A stretch of 64,000 bases of DNA, from the NCBI RefSeq assembly GCF_014635685.1, contig NZ_BMDH01000002.1, forward strand, positions 92,472 through 156,471, given 5' to 3'. The DNA comes from Galliscardovia ingluviei. GTDB lineage: Bacteria; Actinomycetota; Actinomycetes; Actinomycetales; Bifidobacteriaceae. Position 1 is the stretch's first letter. Each line of letters starts with the position of its first letter. This document shows, piece by piece, positions 5,567 to 12,453 of this stretch. A program made the position numbers and the translations under genes. The notes under the pieces are model-generated. The model did not search any database. It saw only the letters and a list, made by a program, of their open reading frames with translations, and was not told the DNA's origin.

Positions 5567-5640
5567 GCGGACGTAGCTCAATGGTAGAGCCTCAGTCTTC
5601 CAAACTGATTACGCGGGTTCGATTCCCGTCGTCCGCTCCA
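5567..5640 (+). tRNA. tRNA-Gly (anticodon TCC)
   Basis: Folds as a full cloverleaf. The acceptor stem GCGGACG pairs with CGTCCGC. The D-arm is GCTC-AATGGTA-GAGC and the anticodon arm TCAGT-CTTCCAA-ACTGA, with anticodon TCC. The T-arm is GCGGG-TTCGATT-CCCGT with one wobble pair. The 3' end TCCA is encoded. The GC-rich arsenic island begins directly after it, so this gene is the likely integration site. Confidence 0.97.
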
Positions 5641-6093: not shown

Positions 6094-7866
6094 CTATGCC
6101 ACCGGGATTTCCCAGACAGGGATGCGCATCTGGTCTGTGGCTAGATAACGCTCCACAGTGTTGCGCTGCGCTGCGGCTCGTTGTTGAAGGAACGTCGACT
6201 GTGTCTGGTTCATTGGTAGGTACTGGTTGATGACCCAGGCTCGTGGCGTAATGTCAGCACGGGCGAGGTCATCAGACAGCTCCTTGGCTTCCAAGATCGG
6301 AGTTGACTCGGGAAGCGTTACCAGGATCGGGAATGTCCGGCTCTGATCTCTCAGACGCATAAGAGCAGTCAGTGTGCCATCGCTCTCTTCAGTTGCCCCG
6401 GACTGGCGCATGAGCTCACGGTGATAGGAACCGGTAGCGTCCAAAAGCAGCAGGGTGTGTCCGGTGGGAGCTGTATCGATGACGACCCAGCGTTGGTCGG
6501 ATTCTTCTAGGACAGCAGAGAAGGCCCTGAAGACGGCGACTTCTTCCGTACATGGGCTGGCGAGGTCCTCGATGAGCTGTGCTCGGCCATCAGCATCCAG
6601 TACCGCACCCTTGGTGTTGAGCACTTCTTGCCGATACTCTTCCACCACCTTGCGAGGATCAATACTGACCACATCGAGACCTGGATATTTCTGCGGAAGA
6701 GTCATATCCAGGTGTGAAGCCGGGTCAGTGGTCGCCAGAAGCACAGGCAACCCCTTGCTGGCTACAGAAGTGGCAAGTGCCTGCGCGACGGTGGTCTTAC
6801 CTACTCCACCTTTACCCATAGCCAGAACGACTTTGGGGCCACCTTCGATGATCTGTTCTGTTGCCTGAAACAGAGCAGCTTGCACCGCTTCGTTAATATC
6901 GGTGGCGTCAGAGGACGGCAGTTCCTCAAGGCCGAGCACGCCCTCGTGGGGTTCCGGGGCAACAGTGGTCAGTCCCTTCAAACCCATGACAGGTTCAGGG
7001 TTCATGGGGATTGTGAAGCATCCCATTCCGTTGAGTGTCGGATGGGTAGTTGCCAGCCCATTGAGGACATGCTGCTCACCGAGCATGAGCCTACGGTGGA
7101 GCGGGTCGTTGTCTGCTTCAGGCAAGAGTGCGTTGACAACCAGCGCCTGCGGATTAACTCCGAGTTCCGAGAGCTCGCTGGCTGCACGCTCAGCCTCCTG
7201 GAGGGTGGAATCTTGAGCGCGTGCCACAAGCACCAAAGTGGTCAGCGCAGGGTCCTTCAGTACATTGACCGCATCTTCGTAGGTCTGACGATGCTTATCA
7301 AGCCCTGACAACGGGCCAAGGCAGGAAGCGTCACCAGTTCCCTTCTCTATGAAAGACGACCAGTCACCTGGCAGTGCGAGCAGCCGAAGCGTATGGCCTG
7401 TGGGTGCGGTGTCAAAAACAATGTGATCGTAAGCATCGACAATGTTCGGGGAGACGAGGAAGTCAACAAATCTGTTGAATGAAGCGACCTCCACCGTGCA
7501 TGAGCCAGAGAGCGTCTCCTCGGACTCGCGCAACACCTCGGGCGGCAGAAGATGACGAACTGGCGCAAGAATCGACTCGCGATACTTTTCCGCCTCCATG
7601 TTCGGGTCGATCTCGATCGCATCGAGCCTGACCTCCACCCCCATCTCCCTGGCGACACTCTCGCCTAGCGCAGTAATTTCAGGTCCAATGGATTGACCGA
7701 AAACCTGCGCAACATTTGATGCCGGATCTGTCGACACCAGCAAGACTTTGCGCCCTTGCGTAGCAAGTGAAAGCGCGGTAGCGCATGACACCGTCGTCTT
7801 ACCGACCCCACCCTTGCCGGTGAACATCAGAAACTTTGTTGTTGGCGGCCACTGGCTCAACAGCAT
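6094..7866 (-). CDS. arsA: Arsenical pump-driving ATPase ArsA
   Basis: Two-domain ATPase of 590 residues, the usual length of ArsA. Each half has a P-loop GKGGVGKTT (about residues 15-24 and 350-358) and a DTAPTGHT motif. The metalloid-site cysteines are present: GSCTVEV (about 121), DASCLG (about 181) and SPCTEEV (about 438), matching C113/C172/C422 of plasmid R773 ArsA. In the family, As(III) binding stimulates ATP hydrolysis that drives the efflux protein ArsB or Acr3. ATG 7866 follows GGAGG and overlaps the end of arsD by 10 nt, so translation is coupled. No efflux partner is in the window. GC content is visibly higher than outside the island. Confidence 0.96.
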   Translation of the reverse strand: MLLSQWPPTTKFLMFTGKGGVGKTTVSCATALSLATQGRKVLLVSTDPASNVAQVFGQSIGPEITALGESVAREMGVEVRLDAIEIDPNMEAEKYRESILAPVRHLLPPEVLRESEETLSGSCTVEVASFNRFVDFLVSPNIVDAYDHIVFDTAPTGHTLRLLALPGDWSSFIEKGTGDASCLGPLSGLDKHRQTYEDAVNVLKDPALTTLVLVARAQDSTLQEAERAASELSELGVNPQALVVNALLPEADNDPLHRRLMLGEQHVLNGLATTHPTLNGMGCFTIPMNPEPVMGLKGLTTVAPEPHEGVLGLEELPSSDATDINEAVQAALFQATEQIIEGGPKVVLAMGKGGVGKTTVAQALATSVASKGLPVLLATTDPASHLDMTLPQKYPGLDVVSIDPRKVVEEYRQEVLNTKGAVLDADGRAQLIEDLASPCTEEVAVFRAFSAVLEESDQRWVVIDTAPTGHTLLLLDATGSYHRELMRQSGATEESDGTLTALMRLRDQSRTFPILVTLPESTPILEAKELSDDLARADITPRAWVINQYLPMNQTQSTFLQQRAAAQRNTVERYLATDQMRIPVWEIPVA

Positions 7867-8258
7867 CCCGAAGTACCTCCACAACACGACGAGCTTGCCA
7901 TTGGAAGCTCCGATCTGCCGTCACATGCAACCTGAGAATCGAGACTGCCCGCAGAATCCCGACGCGCCCACGCACGCAATTGCGCCAGGGTGGGATACAC
8001 GCCCTCGAGGACGATCTCGCCGTTAATCACCACCACGGGAAGAGAACCAGCCCCTTCAGACTCAAGCAGGTCGCGTACAACCGGAGTGGATGCGAAGTCC
8101 AACGGGGCGCTGGCCAAGTTGTGACGCACCACGTCCAGTCCCTCCTTCCGTGCAGCGCTCACAGCTGCCGCCACATCAACGACTTCCTGGTCAACGTTTT
8201 CTCCGCATACACCCGACGAACAGCACATCGCCGGATCAAAGATATCGATCTTGGTCAT
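7857..8258 (-). CDS. arsD: Arsenite metallochaperone ArsD
   Basis: Small thioredoxin-fold protein of 133 residues. It has the N-terminal CC pair (residues 12-13) and C18 of the As(III)-binding triad, plus additional C-terminal CC pairs (SSCCGG, GCC). ArsD hands As(III) to ArsA and raises its affinity. The start ATG 8258 follows GGAGGTAAGAG. It is the first gene of the arsD-arsA operon and diverges from the arsR-arsC gene across a shared operator region. Confidence 0.94.
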   Translation of the reverse strand: MTKIDIFDPAMCCSSGVCGENVDQEVVDVAAAVSAARKEGLDVVRHNLASAPLDFASTPVVRDLLESEGAGSLPVVVINGEIVLEGVYPTLAQLRAWARRDSAGSLDSQVACDGRSELPMASSSCCGGTSGCC

Positions 8259-8277
8259 CTCTTACCTCCACATGTCA

Positions 8278-8320
8278 TATCGATGATTATCGATACGTTA
8301 CATGCTACACCTACGTATCG
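8278..8320. promoter_or_regulatory. Divergent ars operator region with two inverted repeats
   Basis: Between arsD and arsR-arsC. TATCGAT-GATT-ATCGATA (8278-8295) is an inverted repeat with 7-bp arms. CGATACGT (8291-8298) and ACGTATCG (8313-8320) form a second, perfect 8-bp inverted pair overlapping it. The position fits ArsR binding sites repressing both directions. Confidence 0.65.
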
Positions 8321-8350
8321 AAAGTTGTCAATGTGTGGCATACTGGAAGG

Positions 8351-9097
8351 GTGAACGATAGTTACATGTGCGCTTGCCCTGTGGGCGAGGTGACCTTGCC
8401 GTCAATGTCACTTAAAGCTCGGGTGGAACAGTTCAAGGCATTGGGTGATATCACCCGGCTGCAGCTAGCTTTGATGGTCAAGCAGGCTGCGCCGTCCCCA
8501 GTATGTGCATGCAACTTCCCTGAAGCCTTCGGCATGAGCCAGTCGACAATCTCCCATCATTTAGGCAAGCTGGTCAAAGCAGGGATTCTCGAAAGACAGA
8601 AGCGAGGGAAATGGGCGTACTTCACGCTCCATCCAAGCTTTGATCGCAATCTTCTTGAAAACCTTGAGTCAGGAGTCGCCATGAATGTCAGTGACACAAC
8701 CTCAGAAACCACAATCTTGTTCGCCTGCCGGCAAAATGCGGGGCGTTCCCAGATTGCCGCAGCGTTAGCTAAGCAGCTTGCTCCAGAAGGTGTGACGATT
8801 CTGTCGGCAGGATCCGAGCCTGCCGATGCAGTTCATCCCGTCGTCGTTGAGGCGCTCGCCGAGATTGGCCTCCAACCCGATTCTCAACCCAAACCACTAG
8901 ACCCCGCACAGGTCAAAACGTCTGACTGGGTCGTCACCATGGGGTGCGGCGAAGCCTGTCCCTTCTTCCCGGGCGTCCATTATCAGGATTGGAAGATCGA
9001 CGACCCCAGTGATCGTTCACTCGAAGAAGTCCGGGTCATCATTGACCAGATCAGAACACGCGTCCAGGAACTGCTTGTCACAGTCTCCCAAGGGTAA
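8351..9097 (+). CDS. ArsR-family repressor fused to a thioredoxin/mycothiol-type arsenate reductase ArsC
   Basis: One continuous frame encodes two proteins usually made separately. The first ~100 residues are an ArsR/SmtB winged helix: KALGDITRLQLAL, PVCACNF (a CxC metalloid-site motif), MSQSTISHHLGKL. After a short linker comes a low-molecular-weight-phosphatase-like ArsC: FACRQNAGRSQ (CX5R loop), then MGCGEACP with two resolving cysteines, then DWKIDDP. It would repress the ars genes without As(III) and reduce arsenate to arsenite. The start is GTG 8351 or in-frame ATG 8366; the frame is open further upstream but runs back into arsD. An internal ATG at the junction may mark the old arsC start. 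Confidence 0.88.
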   Translation: MNDSYMCACPVGEVTLPSMSLKARVEQFKALGDITRLQLALMVKQAAPSPVCACNFPEAFGMSQSTISHHLGKLVKAGILERQKRGKWAYFTLHPSFDRNLLENLESGVAMNVSDTTSETTILFACRQNAGRSQIAAALAKQLAPEGVTILSAGSEPADAVHPVVVEALAEIGLQPDSQPKPLDPAQVKTSDWVVTMGCGEACPFFPGVHYQDWKIDDPSDRSLEEVRVIIDQIRTRVQELLVTVSQG

Positions 9098-9737: not shown

Positions 9738-10214
9738 TCAATGCTTTTCCTCAAGTTCCTCAGTTTCATTCTCGTGTAGCCGCCGCGTCGCCTGCGTAGC
9801 AATCCGGCGCTCGTAAAAGTACACGCCTACCCAGATAAGCACATATACCAGCACAAATGAGGCTACGGCTCCAGCAACACCCTCCCAGCTTCCAAACCAA
9901 CCCAGAGCTACACCTACAACGCACACAGTAATTGCAATGAGTACAAAATGTATTGCGGTACTCATAATCAACGGTTGTTCTTCATTTTTGAAAAGCAATG
10001 TACCCAGACTACTTACCACACCAATAAGCGCATACAATGCTCGCTCAAAAGCGACAGCTACATTGATATTTTCAAAATGAACCAAGAAGCTAGGAATGCC
10101 AGGCACATAGTAATTACCAGCAAATATTGAAGAAAAAATCAGCTCTATGAGGCAGCCTATGGCTATACCAAAAACAGCTCCTTCAACAATCAAAAAACCT
10201 ATTGAACGTTTCAT
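9738..10214 (-). CDS. DUF3021 family membrane protein
   Basis: Protein of 158 residues with four hydrophobic segments (near residues 5-33, 55-75, 84-105 and 112-132) and a charged C-terminal tail (ENETEELEEKH). This is the DUF3021 pattern. DUF3021 proteins are commonly encoded next to a LytTR-domain regulator, as here, and may hold that regulator inactive at the membrane. ATG 10214 follows GGAGG by 7 nt. The LytTR gene ends 24 nt upstream, so the two form an operon. Confidence 0.8.
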   Translation of the reverse strand: MKRSIGFLIVEGAVFGIAIGCLIELIFSSIFAGNYYVPGIPSFLVHFENINVAVAFERALYALIGVVSSLGTLLFKNEEQPLIMSTAIHFVLIAITVCVVGVALGWFGSWEGVAGAVASFVLVYVLIWVGVYFYERRIATQATRRLHENETEELEEKH

Positions 10215-10238
10215 GGGAATACCTCCAACTCAAATGTG

Positions 10239-10679
10239 TTATATACCTATTGCTCGTTTGAATGCACTCAAATAACGACGTGAAATAGGACAGCGCGTTC
10301 CATCTTTCAATACAACAACAAGACTTGTCGTGAAACTAGTCTCAACGCGATCGATAGCACGAATGTTGACGATATCGGATTGCGAGATCCTCACGAAGTT
10401 CCTGAGAGGTAAGATTTCTTCCAGCTCAAACATCCTATGCCGAATCTGCCAAATACCATCATCCATCGATACATACACTTTCTTATTGTTAGTAAAAAAG
10501 CGTTGGGCATAGCGAAGTTCAACGATTTTAATCTGTCCATCTCGATATCCGGCTATTGTCGATGAGTGAGCCCCAAGCGCAATAGCTTCAATAGCACGCA
10601 CACGCTCATCAATCGCTGCAGCGCGCACATTAACAACAGCTTCTACACAGTCTGGATCAATATTGAGAGCGAACTTCAT
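10239..10679 (-). CDS. LytTR-domain DNA-binding regulator
   Basis: Protein of 146 residues without a receiver domain. The second half (about residues 45-143) is a LytTR domain: EIxxR-like spacing with KVYVSMDDGIWQIRHRMFELEEILPLRNFVRISQSDIVNI and a closing CPISRRYLSAFKRAIGI. Such stand-alone LytTR proteins bind paired direct repeats and usually control their own operon with the DUF3021 partner. ATG 10679 follows AGGGGGGAAGCA. Upstream sequence contains no repeat pair I could identify confidently as its target. Confidence 0.85.
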   Translation of the reverse strand: MKFALNIDPDCVEAVVNVRAAAIDERVRAIEAIALGAHSSTIAGYRDGQIKIVELRYAQRFFTNNKKVYVSMDDGIWQIRHRMFELEEILPLRNFVRISQSDIVNIRAIDRVETSFTTSLVVVLKDGTRCPISRRYLSAFKRAIGI

Positions 10680-11002: not shown

Positions 11003-11107
11003 TTCGGATTTTGGTCACTACATTATTCGGATTTTTGTATTTTACTTATTCGGATTTTGGTAAGCTTAATATTCGGATTTTAGTTGATGAAAAGTTCGGA
11101 TTTTGGT
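11003..11107 (+). repeat. Array of five 13-bp repeats at exact 23-bp period
   Basis: TTCGGATTTTGGT occurs at 11003, 11049 and 11095 exactly, with single-base variants at 11026 (TTCGGATTTTTGT) and 11072 (TTCGGATTTTAGT). All four intervals are exactly 23 bp, with unrelated 10-nt spacers. The array ends 35 nt before the ATPase start codon, inside its promoter/leader region. The architecture is that of an iteron or tandem operator, not CRISPR, because the spacers are too short. Confidence 0.9.
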
Positions 11108-11142
11108 AATCTAGATTGAAAAGTATCGAAAAAGAAGGAATT

Positions 11143-12453
11143 ATGGCAGAACAAAGTGTGCAACCACAAGGGTATCAGCCACGCATTGTAGATACCCAAA
11201 TAGAGCGGTATTTGCGTATTTTTGGTGCAGTCGAGATTGCTGGAACCAAATGGTGCGGCAAAACGTGGGCTGCTCGTCAACACGGCGCAAGTATTACTTA
11301 CGTTGATCGAGATAACAATCTCCAGATAGCACACGCCGATCCCTCACTCATGTTGCTAGGAGAACAGCCTCATATAATTGACGAATGGCAACTCGCGCCA
11401 GCAATTTGGGATGAGGTACGTCACCAAGTTGATGATAATTCCAGTCGAAAAGGGCAGTGGATTCTTACAGGATCTTCCACTCCGCTTTTTAATAAACTCC
11501 CTAATCACAGCGGTTCGGGGCGTATAGGTCGCATAAAAATGCACCCAATGACACTCGCTGAAAGTGGGCTTTCGACACAAACCGTTTCCTTGCAAGGTCT
11601 GTTTAATCACGAATTTACTCCAGCACAGCAGGAATTACCTACGCAACAATTATTCGATGCCGTATGCCGTGGCGGATGGCCGGAAACGCAGCACATGCCG
11701 GTTGAAGATGCACAAATCATTATTCGAGAATACATCCGCCTCACACTTGAACATTCATTCGCCACCCACCAAAAGAATACGGATATTGCACGCAGATTAT
11801 TACAATCGCTCGCTCGAAATGTAGGACAAGCACAAACCTACAAAACTCTCGGTACGGATATGTTTGGTGCAGATGCCGAGGAAACGGGTTTTGAAAACTT
11901 CATTTCTACACGTTCCATCGCTGAATATCTAGAACTTTTTCAACACATGTTTGTAATTGATGAGATTCCTGGCTGGGTTCCCGCTGCGCGTTCTCCAAAA
12001 CGTTTACGCACAAAGCCAAAACGGTATTTTGCAGACCCCTCAATTGCAGCAACAGTACTCGGTATGACCAGCGGTTCGCTACTTAATGATTGGCAAACCT
12101 TTGGACTACTGTTTGAAAATCTAGTTATCCGAGACTTGCAGGTGTATGCTCAGTCTTTGCCTCAGACTTCTGATGTTCCAGTGCGCTACTACCATGACGA
12201 TTCTGACTTGGAATGTGATGCCATTATCGAGCTTACAGATGGGCGTTGGGCTGGAATAGAAATAAAAGTGAGTCACGATAAAGTAGACCAAGCGGCTGAA
12301 AACCTTCTACGACTAAGGCGCAAACTTGTTGAACATCCAAAATCACAGACAAGGGAACCAGAATTTCTTGCTGTTATTATTGGCGTTGGCAAATTCGCAT
12401 ATCAGCGCGAGGATGGCGTGTATGTGATTCCTCTTGGCACTTTGAGTGTGTAA
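11143..12453 (+). CDS. AAA-type ATPase with DUF4143 (PD-(D/E)XK-like) C-terminal domain
   Basis: Protein of 436 residues. The N-terminal AAA_14 ATPase has Walker A GTKWCGKT (about residues 34-41), Walker B PHIIDEWQLAP (about 77-87) and a WILTGSS sensor motif. The C-terminal DUF4143 part ends with LECDAIIEL and GIEIKVS, the D...ExK pattern of a PD-(D/E)XK nuclease-like fold. These ATPases are widespread in bacteria, often many copies per genome, and their function is not established. ATG 11143 follows AAGAAGGAATT. The gene is preceded by a 23-bp-period repeat array and flanked by a duplicated intergenic block, suggesting a self-regulated or mobile cassette. Confidence 0.88.
   Translation: MAEQSVQPQGYQPRIVDTQIERYLRIFGAVEIAGTKWCGKTWAARQHGASITYVDRDNNLQIAHADPSLMLLGEQPHIIDEWQLAPAIWDEVRHQVDDNSSRKGQWILTGSSTPLFNKLPNHSGSGRIGRIKMHPMTLAESGLSTQTVSLQGLFNHEFTPAQQELPTQQLFDAVCRGGWPETQHMPVEDAQIIIREYIRLTLEHSFATHQKNTDIARRLLQSLARNVGQAQTYKTLGTDMFGADAEETGFENFISTRSIAEYLELFQHMFVIDEIPGWVPAARSPKRLRTKPKRYFADPSIAATVLGMTSGSLLNDWQTFGLLFENLVIRDLQVYAQSLPQTSDVPVRYYHDDSDLECDAIIELTDGRWAGIEIKVSHDKVDQAAENLLRLRRKLVEHPKSQTREPEFLAVIIGVGKFAYQREDGVYVIPLGTLSV

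Follow-up and report, generated by a model that had tools for sequence, protein, structure and literature searches.

The window, i.e., the whole 64-kb stretch of DNA that was analysed, revealed on its forward strand an array of five 13-bp TTCGGATTTTGGT cores at 11003–11107, repeated with a period of 23 bp (11003–11015, 11026–11038, 11049–11061, 11072–11084, and 11095–11107). Copies 1, 3, and 5 were identical, and copies 2 and 4 deviated at core position 11 alone, which confirmed the initial annotation of five repeats at an exact 23-bp spacing, three of them identical and two with one change. The self-match score of the array at lag 23 was 34 compared to a maximum of 16 among 100 shuffles of the window, and the array was the strongest short tandem signal of the whole window. 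Allowing up to two mismatches, six matches to TTCGGATTTTGGT were counted in the window (1.3 expected), five of which were located within the array. In the whole genome, only five single copies with one mismatch were detected outside the array, which is about chance, and a search across the same genome for a second TTCGGATTTTGGT array revealed none. Identity among the copies was 95% for the cores and 33% for the 10-nt spacers; therefore, the array does not appear to be a fresh duplication, and its cores are, judged from these identities, held by selection. Thus, from the pair of origins considered at first, selection stands, while recent duplication with identical units does not. The 13-bp cores, the 10-nt spacers, and the fixed place before one gene also do not correspond to a CRISPR locus with acquired unique spacers of ~30 nt.

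The array ends 35 bp before the ATG (11143) of a gene on the + strand (11143–12453) encoding an AAA_14 plus DUF4143 ATPase-nuclease of 436 aa, and a ribosome site (AGAAGGA, 11133–11139, + strand) precedes this start. The gene product matched Pfam PF13173 (AAA_14) and PF13635 (DUF4143) with 52.3 and 97.7 bits, respectively, both above the cut-offs of 27 and 28.1, so that the described location of the repeats in front of the ribosome site of an AAA/DUF4143 gene proved correct. It also matched the PADLOC model PDLC04790 (PDC-S01) with an E value of 1.3e-61. By eye, a weak promoter-like pair was recognized on the + strand (11084–11112), consisting of TTGATG (11084–11089) and TAATCT (11107–11112) separated by 17 bp, which might perhaps occupy the spacers of the fourth and fifth repeats; a promoter scoring scan favoured a different site farther upstream. 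Adjoining the array gene in divergent orientation, a LytTR regulator and its DUF3021 partner were found (9738–10679, − strand), with no sign of a link to the array. An arsenic-resistance-like cluster, named from translations only, was located at 6094–9097 near a tRNA-Gly at 5567 and comprised an ArsA-like tandem ATPase, an ArsD-like protein, and an ArsR-like regulator with an in-frame fusion to an ArsC-like part.

Predicted architecture of the ATPase-nuclease

The protein is predicted to consist of a STAND-like ATPase, followed by a winged helix and an invariant PD-(D/E)XK motif. Based on conservation and a structure model, the AAA/STAND-like ATPase domain was assigned to residues 1–145 (11143–11577, + strand), with invariant Walker A (G34..GK40) and Walker B (D80 E81) residues. 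The structure model and its fold neighbours placed the predicted winged-helix domain at residues 206–304 (11758–12054, + strand), including a putative recognition helix at residues 256–268. The PD-(D/E)XK-like domain at residues 337–436 (12151–12450, + strand) was assigned from its conserved motif and from the published architecture of PDC-S01, in which an ATPase is fused to PD-(D/E)XK (PMC12988326). Residues D359, E373, and K375 were unchanged across 108 sequences, as in PD-(D/E)XK nucleases.

The AlphaFold model of the full ATPase was confident (pLDDT 96). The nearest folds to its ATPase and winged-helix part were 2QEN (Z 14.5), 2FNA (Z 12.9), and CED-4 (Z about 12), and other neighbours of the model included plant NLRs and the SIR2-STAND filament (Z 9.1). 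Residues 206–304 folded alone (pLDDT 86) resulted in a winged helix like those of MarR, Fur, ArsR, and Orc1, with a Z of about 7 that falls within the range of common arrangements; across models, the pLDDT of this domain was 86–96. A search for solved structures homologous by sequence to the ATPase gave none. Though 2QEN (PABY2304) and 2FNA (SSO1545), both archaeal ATPases, are the closest solved folds to the ATPase plus winged-helix part, they share only about 15% identity with it, and the match spans model residues 6–307, with the nuclease domain outside.

In a 2026 survey, PDC-S01 ranked fourth in frequency among prokaryotic defence types, and experimental validation is pending for most candidates of its sort (PMC12988326). 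The window gene and all clades sampled in this study match PDC-S01 models of PADLOC and share the combination of ATPase and PD-(D/E)XK. However, PADLOC covers genes only, without described cis-acting arrays, and no description of the arrays was found in the open-access literature, including papers on DUF4143 and COG1373.

Arrays across the subfamily and in other DUF4143 clades

Homologues were obtained from a one-genome-per-species scan and from 189 genomes of the family Bifidobacteriaceae, leading to a non-redundant sample of 144 genes from Bifidobacteriaceae, Coriobacteriia, and a few others, with Bacillota and archaea left out. For each gene, the best self-match period was determined in the 220 bp before the start, as chosen by a script, and compared to shuffles generated by first-order Markov resampling. 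The best period was 23 bp in 118 genes and 46 bp in a further 15 (133/144 in total), and the periodicity exceeded all 60 shuffles in 137 of the 144 genes. In contrast, a best period of 22–24 bp was detected in only 2/144 intragenic, 14/141 downstream, and 11/132 further upstream control regions, where the mean periodicity score was 8–10 compared to 34 before the genes. Thus, 23-bp arrays are near-universal before genes of this ATPase-nuclease subfamily.

The arrays comprised three to seven units at constant spacing, and their clade-specific repeat sequences included, besides TTCGGATTTTGGT, GGTGTAAAATGTAAGATG, GGCGTAAAATCGGGAATG, GGTCCAAATGAGGAAATG, CGCCAATCGTCGGAATG, TTTCTCAAGTTGCGGATT, and ATTCGAAAAATCTAGTG. 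Copy number had been expected to vary between strains, and it does so among close relatives: two loci encoding 99% identical proteins (L039 and L040) harbored five and four copies, respectively. Homologues of the ATPase on viral contigs also possessed 23-bp arrays, and decoy arrays on phages were discarded as an idea after zero TTCGGATTTT double repeats were found in viral contigs. A general 46-bp alternation of site types, seen in L029, L060, L072, L128, L148, and L153, was likewise dismissed (30/62 overall, p = 0.4). Of 115 best predicted promoters, 89 overlapped the array, compared to 66 expected; because this excess is only moderate, promoter geometry is weak evidence, and the start-to-start spacing of −35 and −10 elements, weighed as an explanation for the 23 bp, was not retained given these weak promoter statistics.

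Other DUF4143 clades, representatives of which matched PDC-S01 models with high scores, displayed different arrangements at the corresponding position. In Bacteroidia, Spirochaetia, and other Actinomycetota, some clades revealed 32/33-bp repeats and one 22-bp spaced palindromic sites, while a clade lacking tandem repeats carried long inverted repeats a short distance upstream of the start codon. Among 67 genes labelled array-less, inverted repeats beat all 15 shuffles in 37; several such loci (L228, L204, L186, L207, L257, and others) showed near-perfect palindromes of 33–40 bp, located 25–40 bp before the start and differing in sequence. On a FastTree phylogeny with long branches, the period behaved as a clade trait, requiring 24 changes compared to 65 with shuffled labels. 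The genome of the window itself encodes a second DUF4143 gene (L291, G000:C3:71900-75000; gene L291:474-1622, − strand; model PDLC04787, PDC-S01), which is preceded by two copies of ~38 bp (TATGATACTTTTTCAGGTCTARCCTTAAAAACTTT) at a spacing of 41 bp. All periods found, i.e., 22/23, 32/33, and 41 bp, are near whole turns of DNA. A striking expansion was observed in one genome of the spirochaete class (G199), with 36 DUF4143 matches.

Association of the repeat sequence with the gene

To judge from the motif comparisons, the repeat sequence is a property of the gene or protein clade rather than of the genome. Array distances were compared for 48 genes having a paralogue within their own genome: that to the paralogue was 0.40, at the level of random pairs (0.395), while that to the array of the nearest relative from another genome was 0.19, the latter being closer in 46/48 cases (p = 7e-14). 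One genome (G069) carried five subfamily genes with five different repeats. Between relatives, the arrays were conserved, and the DNA outside them was at shuffle level (54/36/19 versus 13). In 59 independent sister pairs, motif divergence tracked protein divergence (rho 0.76), with partial correlations of 0.28 for the winged-helix region, −0.26 for the AAA domain, and 0.02 for the nuclease, so that the winged-helix region was the only part of the protein to keep a clear positive, though modest, signal. By itself, such co-divergence is no proof of recognition, since array and gene are inherited together and it is thus partly unavoidable. A column-by-column search for specificity residues resulted in no clean cluster, and only the comparison between domains was retained. 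A strand flip between GAAAATCCGAAT of Collinsella and ATTCGGATTTTC of Bifidobacterium, considered as an argument for duplex recognition, was set aside as ambiguous, the motif register being uncertain between these distant clades.

Arrays had been suspected to always precede DUF4143 genes, which holds within the subfamily apart from rare orphans. The TTCGGATTTT double repeat was found in 13 genomes, at a DUF4143 gene in ten and as an orphan in three, and was confined to subfamily genes or orphan sites. In one orphan case (G074), the flanks aligned at 87–91% with an intact locus (G033), and 49 bp replaced the 1649 bp holding the gene, with two repeats left; judged from this alignment, the orphan is demonstrably a scar of gene loss. 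The scar is present twice in identical sequence (L016 and L023), about 24 kb apart, suggesting either duplication of the region or an artefact of assembly. In G057, a decaying array adjoins a tRNA gene. The orphan in G014 (L010/L294) consists of three TTCGGATTTT copies spaced by 23 bp, located ~60 bp upstream of a gene resembling esterases/lipases; the search of this genome for DUF4143 relatives gave none above the cut-off.

Possible function of the arrays

The array is probably a private operator of the ATPase gene behind it, bound by the gene product through its winged helix and leading to autoregulation. That the repeats are putative tandem sites for the ATPase itself had already been proposed, and this proposal is backed by the near-universality of the arrays, the unconserved flanks, the gene-specificity, and the predicted winged helix. 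The ATPase would dock on its own repeats via the latter, with a single protomer (or half of a dimer) on each 23-bp unit, lined up along the promoter, and in this position would control its own transcription. We infer direct binding and cooperative side-by-side assembly; repression at high protein level would be the likelier sign, fitting a nuclease candidate, and a connection to phage infection is conceivable. With each clade having its own protein/repeat pairing, paralogues in one cell could coexist without cross-talk. The near-integral helical phasing of the periods and an RNA folding of the window array that is not unusual (z −0.62) fit recognition of duplex DNA.

The nearest precedent by analogy appears to be RptR, which acts via three direct repeats to repress its own promoter in a defence island (PMC12255303). 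Both cases would share a self-repressing DNA-binding protein, direct repeats across the promoter, and an anti-phage context. However, RptR is a dedicated 9-kDa regulator whose 9-bp repeats are built around a TAGCTA palindrome, while the sites described here belong to a large ATPase-nuclease and vary from gene to gene. The STAND activators MalT and IniR (PMC5760070) are oligomeric nucleotide-binding ATPases working directly on promoter DNA, as is proposed here, and the ATPase domain of IniR resembles SSO1545, as does the present ATPase. In contrast, they possess a sugar-sensor domain as well as a C-terminal DNA-binding domain of the LuxR or a similar type, lack a nuclease, and activate other genes. 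As a more tentative extension, which we regard as possible but rather doubtful, the whole DUF4143/PDC-S01 superfamily might form a lock-and-key address system. Each clade would then have its own operator architecture (23-, 22-, 32/33-, or 41-bp repeats or a long palindrome) with a gene-specific sequence code, and the ATPase-nuclease would assemble on its address as sensor, repressor, and effector, with paralogues insulated from each other.

Alternatively, the array could mainly serve as a platform on which protomers are assembled or held, which would keep them spaced at their own locus in an inactive or poised state, with secondary effects on transcription. The oligomerising STAND-type ATPases among the nearest folds (2QEN, 2FNA, CED-4, and the SIR2-STAND filament), the constant spacing in arrays of three to seven units, and the invariant nuclease residues would fit this explanation. 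Nevertheless, we consider it unlikely, as the palindromic operators of a sister clade resemble ordinary repressor sites and a place right before the start codon is typical of regulation. That some other protein encoded by the host, either a regulator or a nucleoid protein, binds the repeats is very unlikely. Though the motifs of many classes are A/T-rich, a host factor would be expected to result in one motif per genome, while the motif tracks the gene, with five different ones in G069 alone and no other copies of the array in the window's genome.

An RNA element acting within the 5' leader of the mRNA is hardly to be expected. In some genes (L157 and L161), the array extends as far as the ribosome site with its last repeat, but some arrays (L059, L060, and L065) contain one site alternately in an A-tract and a T-tract form, and the unremarkable folding of the window array, periods close to whole helical turns, and a DNA-binding fold predicted in the protein all speak against it. 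Least probable is an iteron-like element for the replication or maintenance of a mobile unit, as raised in the initial annotation, for despite a similar period of iterons and Orc1/Cdc6 winged helices among the fold neighbours, the arrays belong to single chromosomal genes with up to 36 family members per genome, and the 497-kb contig of the window carries no replication or Rep gene beside the array, as an iteron replicon would.

The five-repeat array of the window is one case of a widespread rule, and this general rule is the real finding. As candidate private operators, the arrays supply each PDC-S01-type gene with a ready candidate binding site and provide a DNA-level hypothesis for a family whose role has been unknown. 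They also offer more than 100 natural protein/site pairs for studying how a winged helix shifts its specificity, as well as a promoter-based handle on the timing of their activation in the course of an infection.
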